A stretch of 64,000 bases of DNA from positions 713,237 to 777,236 of the forward strand of contig JAHCID010000001.1 in NCBI GenBank assembly GCA_026129405.1. Reading direction: 5' to 3'. Origin of the DNA: a bacterium (lineage in GTDB: Bacteria > Desulfobacterota > Binatia > DP-6). Shown piece by piece: positions 13,766 through 40,399 of this stretch. The position numbers were made by a program, and so were the translations under genes. How positions within the stretch are numbered: position 1 is the stretch's first letter; the number at the start of each line of letters is the position of its first letter. A model generated the notes under the pieces. The model was not told the DNA's origin and did no database searches. It saw nothing but the letters and a program-made list of their open reading frames with translations.

Positions 13766-15289
13766 TCACTCGAGAGGGGCGAACAGCCCGAGGCCGAAGT
13801 GGCAGGCGAAGCCGAGCGCCAGCGGACCGGGGACGGGCTCCGCGAAGCGAAGCGTCCAGAAGCTGCCCTGCCGATCCGGCTGCGTCAGGCCCGGCTTGGA
13901 GCGGAAGCGATGGAAGTGGATCGGTCGCAGCATGCGGCCGCCGACGGCGATCTCGGCGACGGGCTCGACGGCGGTGGGATCGGGGAGGCCGCGCTCGCGC
14001 AGCTCGCGGCGGATCTGGTCCGGAGCGTCGAAGCGCGGCTTGCGGTGCCAGGGATGGAGATACGGGGTCACGGAGCGCCACTCTTGTGCGTGGCGGAGCA
14101 GCGGCGACGCGAAGGCAGGGAGGTCGCCTACCGCTTCGAGGATCACCTGCCAGGCGCGGCCGTCGGCGTCGGCCACTCGTCGGAGGCCTTCGAGGACGGC
14201 GACGGCGTTACGGTCGAAGCCTGCCTTTGCGAAGACGATCGCATGATGGACGCGGCCGGCGAGGCCGGGCCGCGCCCCTTCGTGCGCTTCGGGAAGGTAG
14301 AACGCGTGCGCATGGCCCGACGGGCCGTGGGTGGAGAAGACCTCGGGCAGGCTCTCGGGGCCGAGGATCGTACGACACCGTCCCATGATCGCCCGCCGCA
14401 TCCGCTCGCCGAAGCGCACGGCGTCTTCGACGCGGCACAGCGGTTTGCCGTACACCGCATAGCGCGCAACCCTGACTCGCGTGTGGCTCCTCCGCGTCCG
14501 GACTCGCGGGACGGCCGCCGGCTGGAGCGCGCTCGTCGGGCGCGTGTAGAGCACGGCGCGCGCCGCCGGAGGGGCGCTCCATCCCGCCGCCCGTAGCGCG
14601 CCGCTCTCGACCTCGAGGCTCGCCAGCCAGTCGATCGGCAGGGTGGCGACGATCGCGTCCATCTCCTTCTTGCCTGCTCGCCGCTGCTTGGCGTCGGCAA
14701 GGGTCCGCGCTCGGAGCGCCGCGTACTCGGCCGGCGAGCGGGGGACGAGGAGCGTCACCAGATCGTGCGAGTCCGACGCAGCGGTCTCGACGCCGTCCCC
14801 GGCGGGGCACGTATCGAGCGGATCGTTCCACTGGGGCAGGCGTCGCGCCTCGACCCAGCTCTCGGCGCGCCCGAGGTAGGACAGGCGAGCGAGCAGGAGA
14901 TCGAGCGCGCGCTCCTCGTCGCCGTCGAGACGAAGCGAATTCCACACGGCCACCAGGCGGGTGTCGGCTCCGAAGCGCGCGAATGCGTCGAAGACGAGGG
15001 TCGTCTTCTCGGCCCGGCCCTCGCGCGTCGGCATGTAGTGGCGGGTGTGGGCATGAACCGCGGGTGGAAGCGCGTAGCCCGGTAGCTCGCCGGAAAGCGT
15101 TTCGATCAGCCGCGCCAGCGTCTCGCGCGGCACCTCGTCGGGCGTCGCCTTGCGGCGCCAGGTTGCCAGCAGCGCGCGTGCGATGCGCCACGGGTCGGGC
15201 GGCCAGCCGACGTCGGCTTCGTTCACGTGCCGGCCCCACGGCGTCGCGTGATAGCGACCGGCGGGGAACTCGAAGGCGATGGCCAGCAC
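13766..15289 (-). CDS. csb2: Type I-G Cascade protein Csb2 (Cas5-Cas6-like), module A
   Basis: The product has 507 residues from a GTG start 5 nt after the csb1 stop. The family signature AGRYHATPWGRHVNEADVGW lies at residues 10-29 and is followed by PPDPWRIARALLATW. The C-terminus carries the RAMP glycine-rich end CHFGLGLFAPLE, where the family normally stops. In type I-G systems Csb2 supplies Cas5 and Cas6 functions: it binds and processes the crRNA 5' handle region. It is the third gene of csx17-csb1-csb2 module A. Confidence 0.93.
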   Translation of the reverse strand: MLAIAFEFPAGRYHATPWGRHVNEADVGWPPDPWRIARALLATWRRKATPDEVPRETLARLIETLSGELPGYALPPAVHAHTRHYMPTREGRAEKTTLVFDAFARFGADTRLVAVWNSLRLDGDEERALDLLLARLSYLGRAESWVEARRLPQWNDPLDTCPAGDGVETAASDSHDLVTLLVPRSPAEYAALRARTLADAKQRRAGKKEMDAIVATLPIDWLASLEVESGALRAAGWSAPPAARAVLYTRPTSALQPAAVPRVRTRRSHTRVRVARYAVYGKPLCRVEDAVRFGERMRRAIMGRCRTILGPESLPEVFSTHGPSGHAHAFYLPEAHEGARPGLAGRVHHAIVFAKAGFDRNAVAVLEGLRRVADADGRAWQVILEAVGDLPAFASPLLRHAQEWRSVTPYLHPWHRKPRFDAPDQIRRELRERGLPDPTAVEPVAEIAVGGRMLRPIHFHRFRSKPGLTQPDRQGSFWTLRFAEPVPGPLALGFACHFGLGLFAPLE

Positions 15290-15294
15290 CGGGG

Positions 15295-18416
<3,122 letters not shown>

Positions 18417-18615: not shown

Positions 18616-18710
18616 ATGGGGATGAGGAGGGACCAGAAACTCATCGAGGCAAAGGTCGGGTTGCTGGAGCTGGCGAAGTAGCTCGGCAACGTGTCCTAGG
18701 CCTGCCGCTG
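18616..18710 (+). pseudogene. Decayed transposase N-terminus (IS481-like helix-turn-helix)
   Basis: Plus-strand reading from ATG 18616 gives MGMRRDQKLIEAKVGLLELA, then K-stop-LGNVS-stop-ACR. The expected transposase text is ...LLELAKQLGNVSQACR..., so both interruptions are TAG where CAG (Gln) belongs. Similarity ends after ACR. It is a short remnant of an insertion-sequence transposase in the 377-nt gap between the unknown gene and csx17 (A). No other gene was seen in that gap. Confidence 0.6.
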
Positions 18711-18793: not shown

Positions 18794-20179
18794 TTACCAG
18801 CGGACCCTCCACATGCCCCCGCCAGTGCACGACGCGCAATGCTGAAGGGTCTGCCAGCTTCGTTCCCCCTCGAGGCGCGCGATGCCCTTGCGTGCCTTGT
18901 CTGCCGCGTGAGCGCCCTCCCATTTGTTGTGGCCGCAGTCGCCAACGGGAACAACAACGTCGTACCCAGGCTTGGCGTACGTCTTCTTGTAGAAACGGAT
19001 CTCACCCGGCTCTGGGGGCGTGGTCTCGCCCTGCTCCTGGCTGTCGGGCGCGATATCATCGGGGGAAAGGCCCGAAGCCTCTTTCGCCTTCGCGGCGTTG
19101 AGATGGCTCAACAAAGCCTGACGATCCCCGTCCAGGCGGGATACCTCCGCCGCTAACTCCTCCACCCTGCTTCGCAGTTCATCGCGATCCTGTCGGAGGG
19201 CGTCGTTTTCGACAGCATACAGGTCCGCCAGGGCCCTGTATTCTTCAAGCGACTGGGCGCGTTCCTTGTGCTCCAGCAGCGCCCTTCGGCTACCTGCATC
19301 CCGTATCGCGTCGATCTCCGGCGGGCGGATGACGCTTACAGCAGACGTACGGAACAGGAGTGCGCGAAGCTGCCGACGAAAACGCTCCCGCGTTTGCACC
19401 GCATCATCCGACGCGGAGACGAGGCGCTCCGCGGTCCAAAGCGGGTGACGATAACGATCGTCCACTCTCGAAAAGTGCGGCCAAAACAGACGCACCGCGC
19501 CCCGGTAGCAGCCCCATTGAGGCCCGAGAGCATCCCTGAGAGCCCAGGACGCTTCATCGTTCACGATGAAGACGTTCGCGAGCCCGACAAGGTCATGGCT
19601 GAGTTTGACGTCGAGGTCTGGGAGCGAGCAGTAGCCGCCATGGGTACTGATGAGAACGATTGGTACGGTTCGCTGTGGATCGGAAATCGTGTTGGCGAGA
19701 AGCTCACCCGCGTCGAAGCTGTTAGCGCGCTGACACCCTTGCAGGACCGACGAGCCATGGCGCCAAGTCACTGGCAGAGCGAGGAGATCGCGAACGATCC
19801 GTGGGCACTTCGGGTCCACTTCCACCGGCATGATGTGGGTCGTGGTCCAGCCGGTCTCCAGCGTAACGTAAACAACGACCCGCTCATTGGTTCGCACGAC
19901 CGATACAGCGACAGAAAAACGGCGACCGGCTGGGGCATCCTCGTGCAGTTCCAGCATCCACCAAGTGCTGTCGCCATCTGCCGCATCGGCGACGCGATAG
20001 GTTCCTATGCTCCCATCCTCCGGCTTGTAGCCTCCAGATGTGACGGCAGGATCGCCACCCTTCGATCGCAGCCAAGTGGCCACCCGGTCGTTCACGAGTT
20101 GTTCTACTCGCTTCCGCTCTTCTGCAGCTAAGGCCGACCACCCCGAGTGCTCGAAGAGATACGCAGCCACCTTCTGCAT
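18794..20179 (-). CDS. Unrecognised 461-aa coiled-coil protein with a C-terminal Cys/His domain
   Basis: I do not recognise this family. The ATG at 20179 is the only start before an in-frame stop; AGGAGG (20192-20197 on the plus strand as CCTCCT) lies 12 nt upstream. Residues 1-300 look globular, with segments such as RFSVAVSVVRTNERVVVYVT, PRIVRDLLALPV, and a block GCYRGAVRLFWPHFSRVDDR. Residues 306-361 form a strong coiled coil (EELAAEVSRLDGDRQALLSH). A Pro/Glu-rich linker leads to a C-terminal domain of about 70 residues (390-461) with Cys415, His417, Cys448 and Cys451 arranged like a zinc site and ending GGGMWRVRW. No signal peptide or membrane segment was seen. It is less GC-rich than flanking genes. 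It sits between two type I-G modules, after an attC-like site; a defence role is inference. Confidence 0.75.
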   Translation of the reverse strand: MQKVAAYLFEHSGWSALAAEERKRVEQLVNDRVATWLRSKGGDPAVTSGGYKPEDGSIGTYRVADAADGDSTWWMLELHEDAPAGRRFSVAVSVVRTNERVVVYVTLETGWTTTHIMPVEVDPKCPRIVRDLLALPVTWRHGSSVLQGCQRANSFDAGELLANTISDPQRTVPIVLISTHGGYCSLPDLDVKLSHDLVGLANVFIVNDEASWALRDALGPQWGCYRGAVRLFWPHFSRVDDRYRHPLWTAERLVSASDDAVQTRERFRRQLRALLFRTSAVSVIRPPEIDAIRDAGSRRALLEHKERAQSLEEYRALADLYAVENDALRQDRDELRSRVEELAAEVSRLDGDRQALLSHLNAAKAKEASGLSPDDIAPDSQEQGETTPPEPGEIRFYKKTYAKPGYDVVVPVGDCGHNKWEGAHAADKARKGIARLEGERSWQTLQHCASCTGGGMWRVRW

Positions 20180-20208
20180 CGTCGATCATCGCCTCCTGTC
20201 GCTACGCC

Positions 20209-20268
20209 GCCCAACGCTTAGCATCAGCGGCGGCCCGCAGCGCCGTCCGCTGCATGCTGTTGTTGGGC
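20209..20268. repeat. attC-like (59-base-element) recombination site
   Basis: The 60-nt element is bounded by GCCCAAC (20209-20215) and GTTGGGC (20262-20268), which fit the attC R-box consensus RYYYAAC/GTTRRRY. Inside, a 4x3-nt unpaired spacer is followed by paired arms AGCAT-CAGCGG and CCGCTGcATGCT, with two unpaired bases (C253 and T246 of the 20xxx coordinates) on the same arm, as attC extrahelical bases are. It covers the last 15 codons of csb2 (B). A plain terminator hairpin is the alternative. Confidence 0.5.
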
Positions 20269-21831
20269 AGCCGTGACTGGCGTTACCGAGCGTGGAAGAC
20301 CTTCATGCTGAGCCACCGGCCGGAACAACCCCAGGCCGAAGCTGCTGGAGTGCCCGAGGCGGAGGGGCCCAGATATCGGCTCGGGGAAGGTCAGTCGCAC
20401 GCGCTGGCCGAGGCGATCGCCGATGAACGCGCGCTGGCTCGCGTCTCGTCGCGGTAGATGAACGGAGACCCAGCACGGAGGGCCGATGGGCTCGTACGCG
20501 ATGTCCTCGGGGATCCCTCGCTGTTGAAGCTCGCGCCGGATTTGCGCGGCGAGCGTTTCGCGTTCGCGCTCCTTGCCGCCCCGGAGGTGGTGCCTCGGCG
20601 GGACGTATGGTGTGACCGACTCCCAGACGAGCGACGCCCTTTCGTCAAAGCCGGGAGGAGGTGGGACCGAACGATCCAGCGGGATCAGCCGCACCTTCCA
20701 CTCATCGGCGTCCATCCCGGGCGCGGCCCAGGATACGTCGCGGGAGGCGGCCCGGAAGATCGCTTCCTGCTCGTCCGCGTCGAGCGCGGCTGAGCCTCGC
20801 CACACCAACAGGCGCGTCGGCGCGTGGTCCTCGCACCAGGCGAAGAACTCGGTGTGGCGGTGCCCCGAAAGCGGTGTGCCGTCGGCGTGCTTTCCCACCA
20901 TATGGGCGATCGTCTCGCGCACGTCGCGGCTCGTGCGGCTCCAGGTCGCCTTCGGGTCTCCGGTCTTGAGTCGCAGCAGTTCGCGCAGCACCGCGCCCCG
21001 CAAGCGCGAGGTGAGGCGCGCGACGGCCCGTGCCTGAGGGGCCACGTTCCACCCGATGGCGAGCTGCACTAGGTGGAGGTTCTCCTGGTGGGCAGGTGAT
21101 CGTCGCCGCTCGCGGACGGGCGGCCGAGGGGGCCGATCGGCGTAGCGCCGGATCGCTCCGGGCGGGACGCTGCGCTGTTTCGCCTTGTCGTCGTCGGTCG
21201 TGCGCTCGATGTCTTCGCGCGTCGCGTTCGGAAGCGGCACAAGGACAGGGATGGCGCCAGCCATGCGATCGTCACGAAGCGTGCAGTTCGGCTCCGGAAT
21301 ACTGTCCTCCGTGAGTGTGACGAGTACGCGCGTGAACGTCTCGGCGCGACCGAACCAGGTCAGTCGCTCGACGCATGCGCTGAGCGCCGCCACCAAGTCG
21401 TCGGTCCAAGCGTCGCTCTCGATGAACCACCAGACGGGCTCATCGGGTGGGACGCACCAGTAGTTGTCCTGGACGAGGCTGATGCCGTAGCTGCGGGTAC
21501 CAGGCTTCTTCCTCCCGGCCGGGTTCCAGCCGAAGGTGGTGGGGTGGTACTGCCTCAATGGGATACCCCTCCCCGCCGACGGTGGGAGGTGGAACGCATA
21601 CGTGCTCTTGCAGAGCGCAGCCTGGAGACCTTCGAGATCCGCGATGTGTTGGGGTCGCTCTGGATCCTTGCCCATCTCGCGGGCCCACTGGTACCAGCGG
21701 GCCGTTACCGCACGGACCAGACGCCACGGGCTCGGCGGCCACTCCCCGTGCGGATCGTCGTAAGGATTCACCCGCCACGGTGTTGCGTGGAAGCGACCGA
21801 GTGGGAACGCCTGGCGGAGGACGACGCGCAT
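20224..21831 (-). CDS. csb2: Type I-G Cascade protein Csb2 (Cas5-Cas6-like), module B
   Basis: The 535-residue product has the family signature LGRFHATPWRVNPYDD near residues 12-27 and EWPPSPWRLVRAV just after. The glycine-rich end SSSFGLGLFRP is where module A Csb2 and the family stop. Here about 27 further residues follow (AQHEGLPRSVTPVT... and a Gln/Ala/Arg-rich end), the last 15 of which are encoded by the attC-like element. The ATG overlaps the csb1 (B) stop by one base (TAATG). Module B lacks its own cas1/cas2 and must use spacers from the shared array, if it is active. Confidence 0.92.
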   Translation of the reverse strand: MRVVLRQAFPLGRFHATPWRVNPYDDPHGEWPPSPWRLVRAVTARWYQWAREMGKDPERPQHIADLEGLQAALCKSTYAFHLPPSAGRGIPLRQYHPTTFGWNPAGRKKPGTRSYGISLVQDNYWCVPPDEPVWWFIESDAWTDDLVAALSACVERLTWFGRAETFTRVLVTLTEDSIPEPNCTLRDDRMAGAIPVLVPLPNATREDIERTTDDDKAKQRSVPPGAIRRYADRPPRPPVRERRRSPAHQENLHLVQLAIGWNVAPQARAVARLTSRLRGAVLRELLRLKTGDPKATWSRTSRDVRETIAHMVGKHADGTPLSGHRHTEFFAWCEDHAPTRLLVWRGSAALDADEQEAIFRAASRDVSWAAPGMDADEWKVRLIPLDRSVPPPPGFDERASLVWESVTPYVPPRHHLRGGKERERETLAAQIRRELQQRGIPEDIAYEPIGPPCWVSVHLPRRDASQRAFIGDRLGQRVRLTFPEPISGPLRLGHSSSFGLGLFRPVAQHEGLPRSVTPVTAAQQQHAADGAAGRR

Positions 21832-22931
21832 TACTCGTCGTCCTCACCCTCGGAGCCGTCATCGTCCTCTTGGGGCTTGTCTCCGCTCTCGGCGCCCTCG
21901 CGGTACAGCTCCTCCCGCGGCCAGAAGACGTCGGTGATGCCCTGCTCGCCGAAGCCGGCCACCGTGATCGCGTCCTGGATGTTCACCGCGAGCACGATAT
22001 CCTCGCCCTCGCTCTGGAGCGCCGTGCGACGAAGGTGACAGCCCGAGCGGTAGCGGAACGGCTGCTCGAGGAGCTTCTGAACCTTCCAGAGCGCGAGTGC
22101 CACGAGCAGCTCCTGATGCTTGTCTGAGATGCCGAGTTGTTCGGCGCCCTTCCTGCGCCCGAAGGAGCGAATGAGGCTTACGTCCAGCACGAAGGTGGCT
22201 CGCATCGACTCCGCGGTGGCGTCATCGGCGGCGAAGATCGGCTGGCCCGAGGTGGTCTTGCGGAGCCGATCGAACTTCACGCCGGAGCGATCCACGCGCC
22301 CCGCGCCGAACGCTTCGAGGTGGGCGGTGAGCGCGCGAGGTATCTTGATCTGCCACTGCGGGAAGAGCACGCCGTGGACGAGGGAGTTGGGGTCAAGTGC
22401 GAAGATCGTCTTGAAGACCTTCCACCACTGGCTGGCCGGGGGGTGGGCCTTCTTACCCTTCGGATTCGGAAGCACGATCCCGAACTTCGAAATGAGGTCC
22501 TGGTCGAACTTGCCGGTTGCCTTCTTGTCTCCCGCCAAAGGGTAGCCGTCGAGGAAGTAGGAGGACGCGATGCGGTGCCCTTCGGTGAGGCTCGTGACGA
22601 CGACCTCGCGATGCTGGGTCGGTTCAGCCCCCTCCGACGCGTTCGTGACGCAGCGGATGTGGGGCAGGCCGTTCAGCTCCTCGACCAAGTCCAGGTCGTG
22701 CGCGCCGCGCTGGCAGACCGACTCGAGGTGATTCGCCATGCTCGCCGCGCTGTCCACGATGCAGACCTGCTCGACGGTGCCGTTCTTGCGGGGCGCCTTG
22801 TAGATGACGTGGCCGATCTCGGGGAAACCCGCTGGCTGGAAGCGGTCACCCGCGACGGGTTCGAGCGTCGCGGTCAGGATCAGCGGGGAGTATCCCTTCA
22901 GGACATCAGCGGGGTTGAGCGTCTTGGGCAT
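21831..22931 (-). CDS. csb1: Type I-G backbone protein Csb1 (Cas7), module B
   Basis: The 366-residue product has the signature GDRFQPAGFPEIGHVIYKAP, the IKIPRALTAHLEAF block and a predicted backbone fold like module A. It is 48 residues longer than its module A counterpart, partly from a very acidic C-terminal tail (ESGDKPQEDDDGSEGEDDE) that module A lacks. The start codon lies 26 nt inside csx17 (B), a translational coupling overlap. Role: Cas7-type filament subunit on the crRNA. Confidence 0.92.
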   Translation of the reverse strand: MPKTLNPADVLKGYSPLILTATLEPVAGDRFQPAGFPEIGHVIYKAPRKNGTVEQVCIVDSAASMANHLESVCQRGAHDLDLVEELNGLPHIRCVTNASEGAEPTQHREVVVTSLTEGHRIASSYFLDGYPLAGDKKATGKFDQDLISKFGIVLPNPKGKKAHPPASQWWKVFKTIFALDPNSLVHGVLFPQWQIKIPRALTAHLEAFGAGRVDRSGVKFDRLRKTTSGQPIFAADDATAESMRATFVLDVSLIRSFGRRKGAEQLGISDKHQELLVALALWKVQKLLEQPFRYRSGCHLRRTALQSEGEDIVLAVNIQDAITVAGFGEQGITDVFWPREELYREGAESGDKPQEDDDGSEGEDDE

Positions 22932-25023
22932 GAACGTCTCCTTGTGGGCGGCGTCGGGGACGCAGCCAGCGTTCGACCAGGGTCGCGCGCTCGCGGCCCG
23001 AGAGGGGGAAGAGGAGAGCCGCGACGAGGCGGTCCGGGTCGTGGGTCCGCCAGCTCGCGTCGAAGGTGGCGAGGCGGACTCCCGCCATGGCGTAGCGGCT
23101 GGCGGCGAGGCGCGCGGCGGAATCAAGGTTGGCGGACCGCACGAGCGTGACGAGGGAGCGCGCTGCCCCGGGCGTGCGGGCGCCGCGCTCGTCGTCGAGG
23201 AGGTCCTCAGGCGAGACCGCGTCGACGACGAGGCGGCGCCGGTCAACGAGGGGTTGTACGAGCCCGAGCAACGCGAGTTCACCGTCAGCGCTCCGGGACG
23301 CAGGCGCTCGAGCCGCGAGCGCGCGGACTTCGTTCGGGACAAGCTTCCAGTCGAAGAGCGCGAGGCGGGAGAGCCAGGCCGTCAGGAGGGGCTCGTCGAC
23401 GTCGCCCGCGAGCCAGCGGCGCAGGTGGTCCGCCGATGCTGGGAGCGGCGCGCGACCGCGCCAGCGCGTACCAGGGAAGTCCAGCTTCGGCTCTTCCAGC
23501 AGCCTTCGAGCGAGCACAGCGCCAATGGCGCGGGAGATATCGCCCGGTCTCCAGACCCAGCGAGGCGGTGCAACCTTCGCGTGCTCGAAGCGGCGGGGGC
23601 GCGCGCGTCCATCGACCTCGCCATCCAACGTCCAAGAAACGCCGAAGCGGAAGGCGGTGAAGGGCAGCGCCTCGGGGAAGCCCGACACCAGCGCCAACGC
23701 GAGGCGGGCCTCGACTCCGGGTGCCTCGTCCTCGAACAATGAGGGGAGCCACTCGATGGGCAGGGGCTGCCATTGGACCCGCTTCTCGCGGAAGCTGCGG
23801 TTGTGATCGATGCGATCAAGCGCGAAGACGACCGCGTCGAGCAGAGCAATGCCGGCATCGGGGCGATCAGGCGCGGCGGCGACGTCGAGGAGCGCGGACT
23901 CGATGGGCCCTCGCAGCCCCGCGAACCGCTTGCCATCGCGAGGGAAGCCGCGCTGCTCGATCAGCATGGTGGCGCGCTCCAGCACGAGCGAGATCGACGC
24001 GCTCACGGCGCTTGCGGCGAGCGAGAACCGGCCTTCCAGCCGAGGCTCGACCGACTTCCGGCTCGTCGTCCTACCGAGCGTGAAGCGGCGGAACTGGTCG
24101 ATGCCTGCGTCCACGCCTCGCTTGTGGATGGCCGTCGCGAACGCGGCCGGCGTCAGGGCACCTCGCCCGGCCAACTCGGCGCGGCCGCGCTGGAAGAGCG
24201 CGCTCACCTCGGGAACCGTCATCGGGCGGGCCCAGAGCGGCGCCCAGATCTCACAGCGGAGGCGATCGGCCTCGTTCTCGGCGCTCGCGGCGACAGGCTG
24301 CGTGACGAAAGGGAACGCGCCGACGGCCCGCGTGCGCGCGCCGAGCCTTCGGGACGCCCCACCGGCGAGAAGCGCCAGCGCTTCACAAGCGAGCGCCATC
24401 GCCCAGGGGGAGGTCTGGCTGGCCCGGGCTGGTGTCTGACCGCTGTTGTAGAGCTTCGTCGCGTCAGCGAACCATGAGCCGGCGTTGAGCTTGTCCAATA
24501 GCCAATCAACGGGCAGCCCCATCAGCAACGCCGAGAGCGAGTCGCGCCTGGGGTCTGCACCCTTCTTCGGCGGTCCGGCAAGCGCATCCACGGCGGCCTT
24601 CCACCCATTCTCGAAGTCCCTCCGTCCGCCGCTGCTACGGAGAAGGGGGTTGAGGCTTACGTGCGCATGTGGGACCGCGTGAGCGGCGGACAGCGCGAGG
24701 AGACCTTCGGGGGCCGAGGCCTGCCACAACGCGAGTGGCTCGCCAGACTTCGTCTTCGTGCCCTTCTGCTGAGCGTTGGACCAAGCCTTGTCGTACGGGG
24801 TCCACGCCCGGTCGCTCGCGACCTGCAGCAGCTCGTTAACCAGCTCGTCCAGGGTCGAGGGCCCACCGACCATCTGGAGCACCTCGTCGCGCCACGCGAT
24901 GCGAGTCGGCGGCCACTTCCGACTGAGCACACGCGAGAGGCCGAGGGACGCAAGGTAGTTGCCCAGGCTGTCGGGCGACAGGCCAGGCAGTGCCACGACT
25001 GGAAGTCGAAGCTCAGCCGCCAC
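22906..25023 (-). CDS. csx17: Type I-G large subunit Csx17 (Cas8-like), module B
   Basis: The product has 705 residues from a GTG at 25023, chosen because it starts MAAELRLPVVALPGLSPDSL, the Csx17 opening motif; upstream residues in frame are translations of cas3 in another frame. It keeps LPGLSPDSLGNYLASLGLSR and the later PFVTQP and GRAELAGRGAL blocks. The PWNGGSGFY motif of module A is replaced by LNPLLRSSGGRRDFENGW, so the two large subunits are strongly diverged and may read different PAMs. It overlaps the cas3 (B) 3' end by 11 nt. Confidence 0.88.
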   Translation of the reverse strand: MAAELRLPVVALPGLSPDSLGNYLASLGLSRVLSRKWPPTRIAWRDEVLQMVGGPSTLDELVNELLQVASDRAWTPYDKAWSNAQQKGTKTKSGEPLALWQASAPEGLLALSAAHAVPHAHVSLNPLLRSSGGRRDFENGWKAAVDALAGPPKKGADPRRDSLSALLMGLPVDWLLDKLNAGSWFADATKLYNSGQTPARASQTSPWAMALACEALALLAGGASRRLGARTRAVGAFPFVTQPVAASAENEADRLRCEIWAPLWARPMTVPEVSALFQRGRAELAGRGALTPAAFATAIHKRGVDAGIDQFRRFTLGRTTSRKSVEPRLEGRFSLAASAVSASISLVLERATMLIEQRGFPRDGKRFAGLRGPIESALLDVAAAPDRPDAGIALLDAVVFALDRIDHNRSFREKRVQWQPLPIEWLPSLFEDEAPGVEARLALALVSGFPEALPFTAFRFGVSWTLDGEVDGRARPRRFEHAKVAPPRWVWRPGDISRAIGAVLARRLLEEPKLDFPGTRWRGRAPLPASADHLRRWLAGDVDEPLLTAWLSRLALFDWKLVPNEVRALAARAPASRSADGELALLGLVQPLVDRRRLVVDAVSPEDLLDDERGARTPGAARSLVTLVRSANLDSAARLAASRYAMAGVRLATFDASWRTHDPDRLVAALLFPLSGRERATLVERWLRPRRRPQGDVHAQDAQPR

Positions 25024-27838
25024 GACGCACCTCGCTTGGCTTGACGCTCGCGCTAGGTTTCTCGCTGGCACGCCTGTCCGCGACACGAACAAGCGCCTCC
25101 AGATAGGCCAGGGCGAATGGGCCGAGATGGCGCGGCTCGGTTTCCGGCACGACGCCGGCACTGCCCTTGTCCTCGGGCCGCCATGGGCCGAGCAGATCGG
25201 CAACAAGGCCAGTCCAGCCTTGCCCCGTCAGCACGAACTCGTTGCCCTCCCAGCGGCCCTCGGCTCCGTCCTTCGCGACGGAGAAGTCGAGCGGCCACTG
25301 GTCGGAGCCGAGCACCAGCGTGCGAGGCTCGCTTCGCACGCCGAACACGTCATCACCCTTTCCACTCGTCGATCTGAGCACGGTGCGCGCCTTCCCGTGG
25401 TGCGTCGCTGCCAGGTAGACGGCGAGGGCTGGGTAGTTGGCGCCGCCGTCGCGGTACCTTCGCCACATCGCGAGCGCGGAGGCCACCTCGTGGCGCAGGC
25501 CGGGGCGGAACTGGATGTGACCTGCCCAGCGAACGCCGGATATCGCTCGCAGCGAATTCAGCTCGTCCTCTCCGAGCTTGTCGTCGATGGCCCAGCGAAG
25601 TCGGACGACATCTTCCCGGCCGCGTCGTCGCGCTTCATCAGGCAGCGAAAGCGCTGCCGGCCGAAGCCGAAGGATCTGACTTCGAACCGCAACGGCTTCG
25701 CCCACCACGTCGACGGCCAGCACGCGTGGGCTCTTGGCGAGCGGCTCATCGGGGATGCCGGAGCGATCAGCCAACGCGGTCTGCCACTGGGGATGTGCCT
25801 TGCCAAGATCGTGAAGCCCGGACGCTTCGATGACCGCGGTGCGCGTATGACCGTTCAGCGCGAGCGTCTCGCACAGCGCCTCTGCCTCGCGCCGTGCGTC
25901 GGCGAGATGGTCCTCGAGTCGCGACCAGTAGCCGACCTCGGTCCAGGTATCGTCGCGCAGGGAAGCTCCACGCCCGGCGCGCGGCACTTCGGCGAGGACG
26001 TTCGACTTGTCTCCGGTCCAGCCCTCGGTAACGTCGTAGCCGCCGATCTCGCGCTTCAGCATGACGAGCATGCCGGGGCGGATGTCCCAGTAGTTCACAC
26101 GCACCCAGTGGTCCGCCTCGTCGTCCCACAGCCAAGCCTTGCCCTTGTCGTTCTCCAGCATCTTCTGGACGCGAACGAAGGACACGGGGCACCCTTCGTT
26201 CGCCGGCTCCAGCAAAGGTCCGTCGAGGTCGTCGCTGGGTGGAGGGACGTCGCCCGACCAGTCGCGCCAGAACACCGTCACGTCGAGGTCTGGATCGGTG
26301 CCACGCACGAAAGCGCTGACGTCGGTGAACCCGCCGTGGACGTCGCGCTCCGTGGAGAACAGCCCGTGGGCATCGAGCGCGCGCGGAAGCGGGCTTGGTC
26401 TCGGCTGCAGCGCCTCGCGCACGTCCTTCTCATTCAGGTCGTCGATCGCCGCTGCGAAGGCCTTCTGCTGGGTAGCGGGCGCGAGCGCGCCGACGAGCTT
26501 TTTCGCGCGGTCGATGTCAGCACTCTCGTAGGGCCCGATGCGCTCGGCCTTCCCGCGCCCGCCCTCCTGCGGTGTCTCCCAAACCCACGCACGGGCGTTT
26601 TGATCGTCTCCCTTTCGATTGAGACGACCCAGACGTTGGAGCACCGAAGGCCATGGCGCGAGCTCCGACCACAAGCGATGCGCGGAGATGTCCAAGCCCG
26701 CTTCGATAACCTGCGTGCTTACGCAGATGAGTCCCGGGTCGTCCTTCGGTAGCTTGCCTGCCTTCCGGTTGGCGTCGAACTCGAGGAGTCGCTGTTCATG
26801 TCGGCTGCGGTCCTCGCCCCGGAACCGTGAGGTCAACAGCACCTTGTGCGTCACCGACAGCGCGCGGAACACCTCACGCGCCATGTCCACGGTGTTGCAG
26901 ATGACGAGGGAAAGCGCGCCCCGCTCATGCTTCTCCACCACAGCCCTGGCGATGGTGTCGGGTGTGACTGCGTTCTCGGTCGACACCCTCGCAGTCCTTG
27001 ACCTCTTGCTGCCGCTCACGTTCGGCGACGTGCCGCTCCACCACTCGACAGCGCGCTTCGCGGCTCGCCACCACGAGAGACCCTGGTCGTCGACGAGCGC
27101 GGCCTTCAGCTTGCTCTCGAATGCAACTTGGTCCGCCGACGGCTCGCCAAGTTCCTCGCGCGTTCGGTCGGTGGTGCTAAGAAACGACGTGCCTGCGGTG
27201 GCGCTCATCCACGTCGTTAGGCACGGCCTCAACGACCGGAACCGCTTCCTTCGCATCCAGTCGAGCTGCGAGGTCGTCCACAGGCCCGGCCCCATGAGCT
27301 GGACTTCGTCAATGAGCCATCGGCAGTCGTTGTTCAGAAGGCCGAAGTGGACCGGCCACTCGAAGCGGCTCATGGCGTAGCCGCGGTTCAACGCACGCGA
27401 CAGCAGCTGGTCCTGCGTCCCGACGAGGACCCACGGCGTGTCCGGCCATCGCGCCCATTGTTCGTCGATCGTGCCGCCCATGAGCTGATACACGCCGATC
27501 TCGATCTCCGGCGTGTTGGCTCTGAGCGCCTCGAAGTAGCCCTTCAAGCGCTGCACGGTCTGCATCACGAGGCTGCGCATTGGCAGACAGACTACGAGGT
27601 GCAGGGGCTCGGGCTGTTTGTCGACCAGGAGGCGCCACGCCCACGCGAGCGCGACCTCCGTCTTTCCAAGACCCGTAGGAACGCGAAGCACGTCGGGCAA
27701 GCCATCGACGGCAACCTGGAGCTGCCAGTCGTATGGCGTGAACCCGCCGGTCGCGGTCTTGAAGAACGCGGTGAAGTTGTCCGCGCGGGAGTCAGTCGCC
27801 TTCACTCTGCCCACTCCCCCTGTTCCGACCTCGGTCAC
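25013..27838 (-). CDS. cas3: Type I-G helicase-nuclease Cas3, module B
   Basis: The 941-residue product has the helicase-then-HD order of type I-G Cas3. The N-terminal superfamily 2 helicase shows Walker A PTGLGKT (residues 54-60), DExx box LIDEVQLMGPG, STQVIEAGLDIS and motif VI SVLQRLGRLNRKGDD. The C-terminal HD nuclease shows SGLHDLGKAHPQWQ and THHGKARTVL. All catalytic signatures are intact. It is the first gene of the cas3-csx17-csb1-csb2 operon of module B. Once recruited by Csx17 it should unwind and degrade the invading DNA strand. Confidence 0.94.
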   Translation of the reverse strand: MTEVGTGGVGRVKATDSRADNFTAFFKTATGGFTPYDWQLQVAVDGLPDVLRVPTGLGKTEVALAWAWRLLVDKQPEPLHLVVCLPMRSLVMQTVQRLKGYFEALRANTPEIEIGVYQLMGGTIDEQWARWPDTPWVLVGTQDQLLSRALNRGYAMSRFEWPVHFGLLNNDCRWLIDEVQLMGPGLWTTSQLDWMRRKRFRSLRPCLTTWMSATAGTSFLSTTDRTREELGEPSADQVAFESKLKAALVDDQGLSWWRAAKRAVEWWSGTSPNVSGSKRSRTARVSTENAVTPDTIARAVVEKHERGALSLVICNTVDMAREVFRALSVTHKVLLTSRFRGEDRSRHEQRLLEFDANRKAGKLPKDDPGLICVSTQVIEAGLDISAHRLWSELAPWPSVLQRLGRLNRKGDDQNARAWVWETPQEGGRGKAERIGPYESADIDRAKKLVGALAPATQQKAFAAAIDDLNEKDVREALQPRPSPLPRALDAHGLFSTERDVHGGFTDVSAFVRGTDPDLDVTVFWRDWSGDVPPPSDDLDGPLLEPANEGCPVSFVRVQKMLENDKGKAWLWDDEADHWVRVNYWDIRPGMLVMLKREIGGYDVTEGWTGDKSNVLAEVPRAGRGASLRDDTWTEVGYWSRLEDHLADARREAEALCETLALNGHTRTAVIEASGLHDLGKAHPQWQTALADRSGIPDEPLAKSPRVLAVDVVGEAVAVRSQILRLRPAALSLPDEARRRGREDVVRLRWAIDDKLGEDELNSLRAISGVRWAGHIQFRPGLRHEVASALAMWRRYRDGGANYPALAVYLAATHHGKARTVLRSTSGKGDDVFGVRSEPRTLVLGSDQWPLDFSVAKDGAEGRWEGNEFVLTGQGWTGLVADLLGPWRPEDKGSAGVVPETEPRHLGPFALAYLEALVRVADRRASEKPSASVKPSEVRRGG

Positions 27839-28450: not shown

Positions 28451-31400
28451 TCACGCCGCATCCGCCCGCCCCACCCGCAGCAGATCCACCCCCTCATCCC
28501 CCCAAACCTGCTCGCGCGCCGACGCCCGCCAGTCCGCCACCCGCACCAGCGCCTCCATCCACGCCAGCCGGAACGGCCCGTACCGCGCGACGAGCCCCTG
28601 CACCCGCTCCGCCCACGACCGCCCCGCCGCGCCGCCGCCCAGCTCGGCGACGTCGAGCCGCAGCACCGCCGAGCGCACCGTCTCGCGCTCCCCGATCTGC
28701 AGCCCCGGCAGGCGATCCCCGTCCCAGACGCCGCGCGCGAAGCGCTTAGCCGGATCCTCGGGGGCGCGCTCGTCGGGGAGCGCGCGCAGCCCCATGCGCA
28801 CCTTCCCGTGGTGGGCCGCGACCAGGTACGCGACCAGATCGGCGTCGGGCTCGCCGTCGTGCTGATCGATCCAGGCGAGCGCGGAGGCCAGCTCGTGCCG
28901 GAAGTGGCGGCGCTCGTGTCGCCCCGAGCAGGGCGACTTGGCGAGCGCGCCGGCGGCGAGGCCGGCGACCGCCGTGCAGCTCCGCAGCGTCTTCTGGAAG
29001 ACGGGATGCACCTTGCCTACGTCGTGCCAGCGCGCGGCGCGCTCTACCGCCGCGCGCTCCACAGAGGCGCCGAGCGCGTCGCACAGGGCGCGCGCCTCGT
29101 CCTCCACGTCGACGAGGTGCCGTTCGAGGGCGACGGGATGGATCTGGCAGCTCCGCCAGTCGGCGTCGTAGTCCTCGGCGGGCTGCGGCTCCTCGGGCGC
29201 GATCGGCTCCACGCGCGTGCGGCTCGACGCCAGGAAGCCGAGGCGCGGATCGTAGCCGCCGAGCGCGGCGTCGAGGAGCAGCGTCTCGCCCGGCCGCGCG
29301 CGCCGATCGAGCGGCACCCATGCGCCGTCGAGCGCATCGCGACGGCGGATCGCGCCAACCTCGACGCGGATGCGCTTGCGGTACGTCTCGAGCTCCGAGA
29401 GCCCGGCGCGGCACAGCTCGTCGCGCTCGGGAGCCGGCGCCTCGGCCGGCGTGGCGGCGGACAGGTCGCGCCAGAACACCGCGACGTCGAGCTCGTCGGC
29501 GTCGCGCACGTATGGGGAGACGTCGATGTCGAAGCCGGAGAGGTCGGCCTGGGTGTCGAAGAGATCGAGCAGATCGCGGCGTCGCAGCACGAGGCCCGGC
29601 TTCGGCTCGGTGCGAGCGGGCGGGAGGGCCGACGGGCTCGCGCTCGTGAGCGACGCCAGGCATGCGCGGGCGTCGTCGAGCTCTGCGGCCGTGTACGGGA
29701 GCGGCAGCTTCTCCTCGCTCGCGACGTCGATCCAGCGCACCGTCGCGTCGTCGAGCTCGCCGTAGCGGTTGGCGCGGCCGAAGCGCTGCACCAGCGACGG
29801 CCACGGCGCGAGCTCCGTGAAGAGCGTCGCGGCACTCACGTCGATGCCGGCTTCGAGCGCCTGCGTGGAGACGGCGATCGTGCCCGCCTCGCGCGGCGGC
29901 GCCGTCAGGCGTCGTTCGGCGGCCAGGCGATCGCCGGGGCGGAAGCGGGCGTGGACCAGCACGAGGTCGGGCTCGAGGCTCTGGCGGTCGAGCTCCTGGT
30001 ACAGCGCCTGCGCGCGCGCCACCGAGTTCAGGAAGACGAGCGTGCGCGTTCCGGGGCGATGCGCCTTCAGCACCTCGGCTGCGAGCGCGGTGACGTAGCC
30101 CGCGGCGTCGCGCTTGGCGCTCTCGACGTCGAGCCGTGTCCGGGCTCGCGCCACCGTCTTCGGTGCATGGAGGCGCCGCCGTACGTCGGGGTGGGCGCGG
30201 TCGGCGTCGTCGAGCGAGAGCCGGACCGCGCCCGGCAGATGCGCCGCGAAGTCGGCCGTCGCCAGCCAGCGCTCGTCCAGCGTGGCGGAGAGCCAGAGGC
30301 TGCGCGTGTCGTGCGGGATGCCGAGCGACCGCCGCAGGCCTTCGAGCTGTGCGGACGTCGCCTGGCCGGGGCCCATGAGCTGGACCTCGTCGAAGACCCA
30401 CAGCGCATCCGTGTGCAGGAGCGCGAACGGCACCGGCCAACGTGCGCGCGGTACGCCGTAGCCGCGCATGAGCGCGGCCGACAGCAGGAGATCCTGCGTC
30501 CCGACGATGATCGCCGGGCTCTCGGGCTGCCCCGTCCAGGCGTCGTCGCGCGCGCCGCCCATCTGGAGGTACACCTGCGGCGGTGCGATGCCGGCGTCGT
30601 CGAAGAGCGCGCGGCTGGCGTCCAGCCAGCGGCGCGCGGTGCCCGCGGTCTGCTCGACTAGGACGCGCATCGGCAGGCAGTAGACGAGGCGGCGCGGCGT
30701 GGCGGCGTCGGCGCGGAGCAGCCGGTGCAGCCAGGCGACGATCACCGCGGCGGTCTTGCCGAGTCCGGTCGGTATCTCGACGATCTCCGGCCACGGTCCG
30801 TCCGCGAGACGCTGCTGATACGGATACGGCTCGGTGCCGGTGAGCGTGCGGAAGAACGTGGCGTAGTCGAGGTTTGCTTCCATGTCGTGGGCCCTCGGAG
30901 TTTCCCGGACCGACGACGGCTCCTCCGGGTCGGCATCCGGCGCCAGCGTGCGGATCCGGCGCCACGACACGAGACGCACGCCCGAGCGTTCGCTCGACAC
31001 GTCGCCGCTATGGACGAGTGTTGGTGGGCCGAAGCTCGCCGTCGAGCGCTCCACCTGCGCGCGCAGCGAGGTCAGCCAGGCCGGCGACGGCGTTCTGCTC
31101 GCCTTCACCTCGACCGGCACCTGACGCTCGCCCTCGTCGATCAGGACGTCGATCTCGTTGCCGGCACGATCCCGCCAGAACGAAAGGTTCGCCGGCAGCC
31201 CGGCATTGTAGCGGGCCTTCAGGAGCTCGGTGACGACCCAGGTTTCGAAGAGCGCCCCGCGCGCCGGGTGACGGGCGAGGTCGCGAGCGCTGCGGATGCC
31301 GATGACCGCAGCCGCGAGGCCGGGATCGATCACGTACAGCTTCGGCGTCCGGACCGGGCGCTTGCGGAAGCTGGGCTCGTTCGCCGGCAGCCGGAAGAGC

Positions 31401-32140
31401 ACGTAGCTCGCTTCCAGGACCGACAGCCACTCGAGCGCCGTGCGTTGGTCGACGCCGCAATCCGCGGCCAGCGAGGTGACGTTGACGAGCTGGCCCGTGC
31501 GCGATGCGCAGGCCTGGAAGAAGCGGTCGAAGGTCGTGAGGTCGCGGATGTTGGCGACCCGGCGAACGTCGCGCTCGACGTACGTGCGCAGGTAGTCGAG
31601 GTACCAGCGCCGCGGATCGACCGGCCGGTCGTGGACGGGCGGAAAGAGGCCGCGGAACAGCAGCTCGTCGAGGCTCGCCGGCTCCCGCCCCGCGTCCTGC
31701 AGCTCGGCCAGGGAGAACGGCAGTAGCTCCAGGATGGCGACGCGCCCGGCGAGCGATTGGGTGATCGCTTCGAGGAGCTGGATCTGCTGCGAGCCGATGA
31801 GGATGAAGAGGCCCATCCGGGCGTCGCGATCGAGGATCGCCTGGAGGTAGCGGAATAGGTCGGGACAGCGCTGGGCCTCGTCGAGAACGGCGCCGTCGGG
31901 GAATCGCGCGAGGAAGCCGCGTGGGTCGCTGGCGGCGTGCTGCTCCTCGTCCGGGTCCTCGAGGGAGCAGTAGGGTCTGTCGCGAAGGAGGCGACGGGCC
32001 AGGGTCGTTTTCCCGGACTGAGCAGGTCCCGTAAGGATCACTCCCTTGTTGGATGCAAGTGCGCATCGCGCTGATTTATCAGCGATTCTTGCTAGCTCAT
32101 GCGACGGCACTTTTATGGCTGATTCATCCTTGCTTGGCAA
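28451..32140 (-). CDS. cas3: DUF4143 AAA ATPase fused in frame to type I-G Cas3 (module A)
   Basis: One uninterrupted frame encodes 1229 residues. Residues 1 to about 395 are a COG1373-type ATPase: Walker A GPAQSGKT (38-45), Walker B LDEAQ (86-90), then DUF4143 with the nuclease-like FETWVVTELLKARYN and EIDVLID...VPVEVKAS. A 25-residue acidic/Pro linker follows. From Met420 (MEANLDYATFFRTLTG) it is a complete type I-G Cas3: PTGLGKT, FDEVQLMGPG, SLVQRFGRANRYGE, and C-terminal HD ARWHDVGKVHPVF plus AHHGKVRMGL. The start is a TTG at 32140 overlapping the addA stop; a GTG at 32110 is also possible. Met420 (ATG at 30883) has GAGG 9 nt upstream, so Cas3 alone could also be translated. Confidence 0.88.
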   Translation of the reverse strand: MPSKDESAIKVPSHELARIADKSARCALASNKGVILTGPAQSGKTTLARRLLRDRPYCSLEDPDEEQHAASDPRGFLARFPDGAVLDEAQRCPDLFRYLQAILDRDARMGLFILIGSQQIQLLEAITQSLAGRVAILELLPFSLAELQDAGREPASLDELLFRGLFPPVHDRPVDPRRWYLDYLRTYVERDVRRVANIRDLTTFDRFFQACASRTGQLVNVTSLAADCGVDQRTALEWLSVLEASYVLFRLPANEPSFRKRPVRTPKLYVIDPGLAAAVIGIRSARDLARHPARGALFETWVVTELLKARYNAGLPANLSFWRDRAGNEIDVLIDEGERQVPVEVKASRTPSPAWLTSLRAQVERSTASFGPPTLVHSGDVSSERSGVRLVSWRRIRTLAPDADPEEPSSVRETPRAHDMEANLDYATFFRTLTGTEPYPYQQRLADGPWPEIVEIPTGLGKTAAVIVAWLHRLLRADAATPRRLVYCLPMRVLVEQTAGTARRWLDASRALFDDAGIAPPQVYLQMGGARDDAWTGQPESPAIIVGTQDLLLSAALMRGYGVPRARWPVPFALLHTDALWVFDEVQLMGPGQATSAQLEGLRRSLGIPHDTRSLWLSATLDERWLATADFAAHLPGAVRLSLDDADRAHPDVRRRLHAPKTVARARTRLDVESAKRDAAGYVTALAAEVLKAHRPGTRTLVFLNSVARAQALYQELDRQSLEPDLVLVHARFRPGDRLAAERRLTAPPREAGTIAVSTQALEAGIDVSAATLFTELAPWPSLVQRFGRANRYGELDDATVRWIDVASEEKLPLPYTAAELDDARACLASLTSASPSALPPARTEPKPGLVLRRRDLLDLFDTQADLSGFDIDVSPYVRDADELDVAVFWRDLSAATPAEAPAPERDELCRAGLSELETYRKRIRVEVGAIRRRDALDGAWVPLDRRARPGETLLLDAALGGYDPRLGFLASSRTRVEPIAPEEPQPAEDYDADWRSCQIHPVALERHLVDVEDEARALCDALGASVERAAVERAARWHDVGKVHPVFQKTLRSCTAVAGLAAGALAKSPCSGRHERRHFRHELASALAWIDQHDGEPDADLVAYLVAAHHGKVRMGLRALPDERAPEDPAKRFARGVWDGDRLPGLQIGERETVRSAVLRLDVAELGGGAAGRSWAERVQGLVARYGPFRLAWMEALVRVADWRASAREQVWGDEGVDLLRVGRADAA

Positions 32141-38062: not shown

Positions 38063-38270
38063 CGTCGAACCGCGAGGCGTCCTAGCACGCAGGCTTGACA
38101 GCCGCTGACGGCGCGGGTCGGCATAGGGCATTCCGGGCTACGACGTCAATTCTGGCGCATCACCCCTCTATCTACCGAATGCGAGAAGACACTGGTCTTG
38201 CCATTCGCTGCCACGCAGCCCTACAACGGATCGTGACCCGGTGGGCATTGCTGGCCCGCGGTGGATCCCG
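38063..38270. promoter_or_regulatory. Divergent promoter region between addB-like and cas2
   Basis: The 208-nt gap should hold promoters for both halves of the island. It is more AT-rich than its surroundings around 38145-38225. An imperfect inverted repeat at 38177-38206 (GAATG...AAGAC ACTG GTCTT...CATTC) could be an operator or a transcript hairpin. No convincing -35/-10 pair was identified. Confidence 0.4.
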
Positions 38271-38582
38271 ATGAGGAACACGTATCTCGTCTGCTACGAC
38301 ATCTGCGAGGATCGGCGCCTGCGCCTCGTCTACCGCACGATGCGCGATTTCGGCGATCACCTGCAGTACTCGATCTTCGAGTGTCAGTTCACGCCGACGG
38401 ACCTCGTGCGATGCCGGCACGCGCTGAGCGAGATCATCGATCATCGCGAGGATCAGGTGCTCTTCGTCGATCTGGGGCCCGTCGAGGGGCGCGGCGATCG
38501 CGTCATCACCGCACTGGGTAAAGCGTACTCGCCCATCGACAGCCCGTGCATCGTCGTCGACCGCCCGTCCGGGGGGCGATGA
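38271..38582 (+). CDS. cas2: CRISPR adaptation endoribonuclease-fold protein Cas2
   Basis: The 103-residue product has the ferredoxin-like Cas2 start MRNTYLVCYDICEDRRL, with the conserved Asp (YDI) and the characteristic QYSIFECQF strand. The ATG at 38271 gives the normal Cas2 length; the in-frame GTG at 38241 would add ten atypical residues. Cas2 dimers bridge Cas1 dimers in the spacer integrase. Here it precedes cas4-cas1, with an ATGA overlap; the more usual order is cas4-cas1-cas2. Confidence 0.95.
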   Translation: MRNTYLVCYDICEDRRLRLVYRTMRDFGDHLQYSIFECQFTPTDLVRCRHALSEIIDHREDQVLFVDLGPVEGRGDRVITALGKAYSPIDSPCIVVDRPSGGR

Positions 38583-40399
38583 TGGGCTCGCCGCGCGCGG
38601 TGCCTCCCGGCGAGAAGATGCAGCGGCGAGGTCCGCTGGCGGCGTCGCCCGCCCGAACCGTCGAGCTTCCGGAGTACCTGCCCGCCCGGATGCTCAACGA
38701 GTTCGTGTACTGCCCGCGGCTCTTCTTCTACGAATGGGTCGAGCGGGTGTTCGTCGAGAGCGTCGACACGGTCGAGGGCTCGCAGCGCCACGAGAAGCTC
38801 GAACGCAAGGCCGACCCGCTGCCGCCGGCCGGCGACGGTGACGACCGCCCGGTGCGCTCGCGCTCGGTCTCGGTGGCCAGCGACGAGCTCAAGTTGATCG
38901 CGGTCATCGACGTCGTCGAGGGGAGCGGCTCACGCGTGACACCCGTCGACTACAAGAAGGGGAGGCCGCGCGACGGCATCGACGGGCCGGAGCCATGGGA
39001 TGCGGATCGCATCCAGGTCGGTGCACAGGCACTGATCCTCCGTGCGAACGGCTACGAATGCGACGAGGCGGTTCTATACTACGACGGAACACGCCAGCGC
39101 GTGCGTGTTCGGATCGATGAGCAGCTCGAAGCCGATGTCCGCGCCGCCGCTGCGGCGGCGCGGTCGGTGGCGAGCCGAGGAGCGATCCCGCCCCCGCTCG
39201 TCGATAGTCCGAAGTGCCCTCGATGCTCGCTGGTGCCCGTGTGCCTCCCGGACGAGACCGCCGCGGCCGCAAGGCTGCGCGAGCTCGACCACGCGGAGCA
39301 GCTACCGCTCTTCGACGTTGCGGGTGTCTCCGGTGGGGACATCCACCAGGCGTCGAGTGATCCGGTCCGGCGGCTCGTCCCGGCCCGCGACGATCTGCGT
39401 CCGCTCTATGTCACCGGTCATGGGCTCAGCATCGGGAAGAGCGGCGAGGTACTCCAGGTTCGCGAGCGCGGGAAGCTCGTCCAGGAGGCACGAGTGGGAG
39501 AGATCTCGCAGGTGAACGTATTCGGCAACGTTCAGCTCACCGCGGCTGCCGTCCAGGGCCTGTGCTGGGCCGATCGCCCGATCGCACACTTCTCGTTTGG
39601 CGGCTGGTTCTACGGCCTCACTCAGGGAATCGGTCTCAAGAACGTCTTCCTGCGCCGCGAGCAGTTCCGACGATCCGAGGACGGACGCTTCGCGTTGCGG
39701 ATTGCGCGCGCGATCGTCGCGTCGAAGATTCGAAACCAGCGCACCCTGCTGCAGCGCAACCACATCGAGCCGCCGGCGCTCGTCCTGAAGCGGATGCGCC
39801 GCCTCGCAGCCGACGCGGGGGAGGCCGAGGACCTTGCCGAGTTGCTCGGGATCGAGGGGACCGCGGCCCGAATGTATTTCCAGGAGTTCGGGGGACTCCT
39901 CAAGCAGGAAGACGGCGACGGTCTACCGCCGCTCGATCTCGATGGCCGCAACCGGCGCCCGCCGCGAGACCCGGTGAACGCGCTCCTGTCGTTCGCCTAC
40001 AGCCTGCTGGTCAAGGACGTCACGATCGTGTGCGCCACGATCGGCTTCGACCCGTTCGTGGGCTTCTATCATCAGCCGCGCTTCGGCCGCCCGGCACTCG
40101 CGTTGGATATGATGGAGATGTTCCGCCCGTTGATCGCGGACTCCGCCGTGCTGAGCGCAATCAACACTCGCATGGTCGGACGCGACGATTTCATCCAGGC
40201 CGGACGAGCCGTCGGCCTCACGCCATCGGGCCGAAAGGGAATGATCCGGGCATACGAGCAACGGATCGACACCCTGGTGACGCACCCGCTCTTTGGCTAT
40301 CGAGTGAGCTATCGCCGCATCCTGGAGATTCAGGCTCGGCTCCTGGCGCGAGTGCTGATGGGCGAAATCGTGACGTATCCCGGCTTCGAGACGCGGTAG
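38579..40399 (+). CDS. cas4-cas1: Cas4-Cas1 fusion, spacer selection and integration
   Basis: The 606-residue product starts at the ATG overlapping the cas2 stop; a few residues at the start may be dispensable. Residues 30-230 are Cas4: the first cluster Cys in FVYCPRLFFYEWVE (Cys45), RecB-type nuclease residues in VIDVVEG and VDYKKG, and the other three cluster Cys in PKCPRCSLVPVC (213, 216, 222). The Cas1 part starts near residue 275, with catalytic Glu in LLGIEGTAARMYF, His in FVGFYHQPRFG and the acidic block LDMMEMFRPLIADS. Cas4-Cas1 fusion is a hallmark of type I-G. It is the only adaptation module in the window, directly upstream of the array. Confidence 0.95.
   Translation: MMGSPRAVPPGEKMQRRGPLAASPARTVELPEYLPARMLNEFVYCPRLFFYEWVERVFVESVDTVEGSQRHEKLERKADPLPPAGDGDDRPVRSRSVSVASDELKLIAVIDVVEGSGSRVTPVDYKKGRPRDGIDGPEPWDADRIQVGAQALILRANGYECDEAVLYYDGTRQRVRVRIDEQLEADVRAAAAAARSVASRGAIPPPLVDSPKCPRCSLVPVCLPDETAAAARLRELDHAEQLPLFDVAGVSGGDIHQASSDPVRRLVPARDDLRPLYVTGHGLSIGKSGEVLQVRERGKLVQEARVGEISQVNVFGNVQLTAAAVQGLCWADRPIAHFSFGGWFYGLTQGIGLKNVFLRREQFRRSEDGRFALRIARAIVASKIRNQRTLLQRNHIEPPALVLKRMRRLAADAGEAEDLAELLGIEGTAARMYFQEFGGLLKQEDGDGLPPLDLDGRNRRPPRDPVNALLSFAYSLLVKDVTIVCATIGFDPFVGFYHQPRFGRPALALDMMEMFRPLIADSAVLSAINTRMVGRDDFIQAGRAVGLTPSGRKGMIRAYEQRIDTLVTHPLFGYRVSYRRILEIQARLLARVLMGEIVTYPGFETR

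Follow-up and report, generated by a model that had tools for sequence, protein, structure and literature searches.

Identification of the gene between two CRISPR effector modules

What kind of protein is encoded between two type I-G CRISPR effector modules in this genome, and how did its gene come to lie there? We approached this question from the window, i.e., the whole 64,000-nucleotide stretch of DNA analyzed, and from the relatives of the gene; the features of the locus are summarized in Table 1. The sequence-only reading had described an unrecognised 461-residue protein located after an attC-like site and between two type I-G modules, with a coiled coil, the residues Cys415, His417, Cys448, and Cys451, and the ending GGGMWRVRW. 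All of these elements were borne out, and only the word "unrecognised" had to be abandoned. The ORF is intact, begins with ATG, and lies on the same strand as the cas genes, its start falling 45 bp past the stop codon of cas56g. It was considered a real gene because its relatives (36-52% identity where measured) keep a common start (MQK, MQR, or MQT) and a common end (W(R/K)V(R/K/Q)W), and because dN/dS was ~0.10-0.27 in the computable pairs, in which dS was near saturation. At the level of the coding sequences compared, this shows that the subfamily is under purifying selection. The GC content of the gene is 62.1%, compared with 65.5-70.3% in the upstream cas genes, 71.4-75.1% in the downstream cas genes, and 71.3% in the window.

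Table 1. Features of the locus, with positions in the window
Feature	Position	Strand	Evidence or remark
Downstream type I-G module (Cas8g, Cas7g, Cas56g)	13766..18416	-	PADLOC matches
N-terminal transposase remnant containing in-frame stops (MRRDQKLIEAKVGLLELAK*LGNVS*)	18622..18699	+	Translation; between the HEC-07-like gene and the downstream module
HEC-07-related gene (461 codons and stop)	18794..20179	-	ORF; four HEC-07 models of PADLOC-DB; relatives
C-terminal Cys/His module, residues 392-461 (~70)	18797..19006	-	Replaces the usual HEC-07 C-terminal module
His447-Cys448-x2-Cys451, second half of probable zinc site	18827..18841	-	Invariant in subfamily
Cys415-Gly-His417, first half of probable zinc site	18929..18937	-	C415 and G416 invariant in subfamily; position 417 His in all but L093 (Cys)
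Coiled coil, residues 304-366	19082..19270	-	Heptad a/d excess; weak matches to coiled-coil proteins (Pfam, only; PDB, mostly)
HEC-07-matching part (core and coiled coil), residues 33-366	19082..20083	-	PDLC04161, E 1.1e-29, profile positions 47-380 of 553
AGGAGG ribosome-binding site	20192..20197	-	12 nt 5' of the ATG; sequence
Integron-type attC, 60 bp	20209..20268	-	Sole window match; hairpin; likeness to C6 attC
Upstream type I-G module (Cas3g, Cas8g, Cas7g, Cas56g)	20224..27838	-	PADLOC matches; last stop codon inside attC

The transposase remnant adjoining the gene may be related to transposases of the IS481 type. Several further CRISPR-related features were observed in the window. At 28454-32140 (minus strand), a single 1229-aa open frame encodes both an AAA_14/DUF4143 ATPase (residues 15-380; PADLOC PDC-S01) and, at residues 425-1211, a full type I-G Cas3; a separate, second Cas3g is located at 25016-27838. 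Cas2 is encoded at 38241-38579 and a Cas4-Cas1 fusion at 38546-40396; the latter is followed by an apparent long CRISPR array, seen as repetitive frames at ~40.7-46.0 kb (to 46045).

Relationship of the protein to HEC-07

Searches of the 461-aa protein against Pfam, NCBIfam, PHROGs, and PDB yielded only weak matches, mostly to coiled coils. The profile searches proposed with the sequence-only reading gave a different outcome in PADLOC-DB, where the protein matched all four HEC-07 models (PDLC04158-04161), with a best score of 101.8 bits and an E-value of 1.1e-29; the assignment denotes a significant profile match rather than a formal PADLOC call. The matched region stops at profile position 380, and positions ~380-553, i.e., the last ~170, which form the C-terminal module of HEC-07, were unmatched. 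All four models also matched the 10 members of alignment A4 (10/10). Based on these sequence comparisons, the protein is a variant form of HEC-07, a candidate anti-phage family, with another module in place of the usual C-terminal one. HEC-07 profile matches were also found in genomes G011, G012, G121, and G123 (E 1e-4 to 1e-3). These covered only profile positions ~306-410, which correspond to the coiled-coil stretch, and they were rejected as relatives.

HEC stands for Hma-embedded candidate, and several HECs have been reported to be anti-phage, with HEC-04, HEC-05, and HEC-06 having members that protect against phage (PMC12111858, PMC11411939, PMC12988326). HEC-07 itself is a catalogued defence candidate that is neither named nor described in any paper found in our literature search. 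In the present locus the direct flanks are the two type I-G modules, and a scan of the proteins further upstream gave no Hma match.

The residues of the core that are kept across the superfamily are W36, P126, R170, P173, G199, V203, L214, A228, R230, P234, D241, and H245. Walker A was searched for and was absent in all members; the core has no P-loop and no recognised nuclease motif, and no catalytic motif was recognised in the protein. In the coiled coil, the hydrophobic excess at positions a and d in the best register was significant relative to shuffled sequences (p = 0.0002), and the Fourier test for a heptad was not significant.

C-terminal Cys/His module

Residues 392-461 have no detectable similarity to the C-terminal module of HEC-07, and searching them against Pfam, NCBIfam, PHROGs, PDB, plasmids, and phages returned nothing significant. 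A match to Csy1 (E 0.37) was rejected as noise. The four Cys/His ligand positions are conserved in the subfamily: C415, C448, and C451 are invariant, and position 417 is His, or Cys in one member. An exchange of His for Cys is typical of zinc ligands, and the module, judged by its residue pattern, probably binds zinc. It is also rich in Lys and Arg, and in six relatives it is 57-69% identical to the window copy, compared with 36-52% for the whole protein. Because the module is basic in this way and more conserved than the whole protein, we favour nucleic-acid binding as its putative role.

Each of the two kinds of C-terminal module was also found without the core. The common HEC-07 module is part of the first gene of two-gene operons located on plasmids of Delftia, Acidovorax, and Variovorax (L067, 8485-10555; L069, 8524-10512; L068, 8554-10735). 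The second genes of the Delftia and Acidovorax operons are related (30%), and those tested had no Pfam match. The zinc module was found alone once, as a 90-residue ORF (L081) that may be a remnant.

Relatives and their genomic contexts

Relatives were searched for in IMG/VR, GTDB genomes, and Myxococcota genomes. A query with the single protein against genome contigs found none; the three-row alignment A3 was needed to find them, and alignment A1 was too divergent for searching. Ten relatives share the architecture (L028, L029, L031, L032, L033, L034, L035, L092, L093, and L094), including imperfect ones: L029 is broken over several frames, L032 is shortened by a stop, and L033 is partial at a contig end. 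They come from Myxococcota, Pseudomonadota, and prophages. In the tree, those placed form a single clade (support 100/100) on a long stem, with phyla mixed, inside the HEC-07 superfamily. The subfamily is rare and its distribution patchy: within the gene's own class a close copy was present only in G000 and G097 among 148 genomes, and in Myxococcota a full-length match was found in 4 of 377 genomes. L034 and L092 are very similar gene copies (equal length, few differences) in genomes of different groups. Either the gene was transferred recently, or a metagenome bin is contaminated, the latter being considered because L034 is near a contig end.

The sequence-only reading had proposed a survey of whether homologues occur in defence islands; defence genes were seen near some of the relatives and not near others. 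Genes in the relatives' contigs, some of which are short, were called by a simple composition rule. Within the subfamily, L031 lies directly after AbiEi/AbiEii, and L028 lies in a prophage with a gene pair, one GmrSD/NsnA-like and one HEPN, nearby. L033 is near a phage head gene (phrog_13868) that shares 57% identity with its counterpart near L028, which suggests a variable cargo spot in a phage group represented by these two prophage-like contigs. L029 is near a Zot gene, and an overlapping XRE-type regulator lies upstream of L094. In the wider HEC-07 family, L071 has a type III methyltransferase on one side and a UvrD helicase on the other, L073 adjoins DruH/DruE (Druantia III), L030 is by an AccI-type REase, Vsr, and an MTase (type II R-M), and L065 is by a CBASS phospholipase and two integrases. 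The window, the AbiE and the prophage GmrSD/HEPN contexts in the subfamily, and the R-M, Druantia III, and CBASS contexts in the wider family agree with a defence association, whereas at least five relatives (L034, L035, L092, L093, and L094) had no known defence gene in view. Cas genes were found beside none of the 10 relatives in the DNA examined, where some contigs are short, and no constant partner gene was seen beside them. The outcome that the sequence-only reading had named as speaking against a defence gene, namely mainly housekeeping contexts or a clear match to a known non-defence family, was not encountered among the relatives found.

An integron-type attC site upstream of the gene

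The attC-like site is separated from the gene by 29 bp, and the cas56g stop codon lies inside it. It is the only site in the window with RYYYAAC/GTTRRRY (R''/R') ends and pairing arms, and no such site occurred in 20 shuffled windows. Its hairpin (z -3.7) folds better than 200 of 200 shuffled sequences, and 52 of its 60 bases are identical to those of an attC ~1 kb from an integron integrase on contig C6 of the same genome; Rfam had no match for the region. The genome contains three integron-integrase matches above the family cut-off, with further attC sites nearby. The integrases are located on contigs C1 (1639930), C2 (564209), and C6 (15548) of G000; at least two are split over frames, and the nearby attC sites are co-directional.

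Because the extra bases lie in the minus-strand 5' arm, and because each arm corresponds to that of the C6 site, the attC is read as following cas56g and preceding the HEC-07-like gene, i.e., in the position of the next cassette. On the 3' side of the gene, neither a second attC nor a partial arm was found within the window, so the cassette reading is incomplete. Given the upstream site in the next-cassette position, and given that a broken transposase start rather than an attC follows the gene, capture as a cassette and later loss of the distal site is plausible.

Candidate function and alternative explanations

We consider it fairly probable, although far from certain, that the gene was acquired horizontally and by itself encodes an independent candidate anti-phage factor, in which an HEC-07-type core and a coiled coil are combined with an alternative zinc module at the C-terminus. 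The defence role is suggested by the family and the context. Of the three roles offered by the sequence-only reading, an accessory effector, a sensor, and an independent defence gene carried as cargo, the last was best supported, by the candidate-defence family, the patchy distribution, the prophage and mobile contexts, the lower GC content, and the attC. Being on the cas strand, the gene could be transcribed by read-through from the upstream cas operon. A mechanism can be proposed from the anatomy of the protein. The coiled coil would let the protein dimerize or oligomerize, the zinc module, which is conserved and basic, would bind a nucleic-acid target made during infection, and the core, with its conserved R170, R230, D241, and H245, would perform or trigger a block to phage growth.

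The location of the gene might instead indicate a type I-G accessory, i.e., an ancillary effector or regulator acting with the flanking Cascade-like complexes. The shared strand, the short distance to cas56g, and the position between two I-G modules agree with this role, which was also among those offered initially. However, none of the 10 relatives was beside cas genes in the DNA examined, and the attC and the lower GC content mark a separate acquisition, so we regard an accessory function as very unlikely. The gene could also be another kind of mobile-element or prophage gene, such as a lysogenic conversion gene, a regulator, or the toxin of a toxin-antitoxin pair, that spreads but gives the cell no protection. 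Three of the relatives lie within or close to prophages, the XRE-type regulator overlaps upstream of L094, and several relatives are solitary. Nevertheless, the family of the core is found embedded in defence operons, and the constant partner that a toxin-antitoxin pair would need was not seen; we judge this explanation unlikely.

It is also conceivable that integron and transposon activity brought in a passenger that is now stranded and functionless, as the missing downstream attC, the broken transposase start beside the gene, and the broken relative L029 might suggest. The intact ORF, the four ligands, the conserved start and end, and the purifying selection on the family all argue against such decay, and we consider it highly improbable. 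Returning to the preferred explanation of an independent defence factor, we tentatively extend it to the family as a whole. HEC-07 might be a modular immune protein with a constant core and coiled coil and interchangeable C-terminal modules, of which the common one also occurs without the core in the plasmid operons and the zinc module also occurs as a 90-residue ORF. A swap would alter recognition or action, and integrons might insert a gene of this kind into a CRISPR operon, adding a layer of innate defence. This generalization is possible but doubtful. A clade in which one module is swapped for a different conserved one allows the parts that sense infection and that act to be told apart directly by experiment, and the locus represents a case in which a candidate gene of innate defence has come to lie between two CRISPR effector modules, probably through an integron.

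Comparison with known systems

The gene resembles an integron gene cassette in having an attC immediately 5' of it, in a genome that also carries integron integrases and attC sites like this one, but it differs in having no attC on its 3' side and in that the integrases are located elsewhere in the genome. HEC-04, HEC-05 (BrxU), and HEC-06 were found by the same guilt-by-embedding logic and are likewise single proteins reported to defend against phages; the papers describe HEC-04 as an ATPase-TOPRIM protein and HEC-05 and HEC-06 as GmrSD-like, whereas the 461-aa protein has no such domain. The closest counterpart is HEC-07 of PADLOC, with which the protein shares the single-gene form as well as the core and coiled coil (residues 33-366; lowest E-value 1.1e-29), and whose other members are found within defence operons or next to them. 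The window gene differs from it in lacking the C-terminal ~170 profile positions and having the Cys/His module in their place, in lying between two type I-G modules rather than among Hma, R-M, or Druantia genes, and in belonging to a separate clade on a long stem. Judged from these comparisons, the HEC-07 core and coiled coil are the known part of the protein, and the clade with a Cys/His module in place of the C-terminal module appears to be new.
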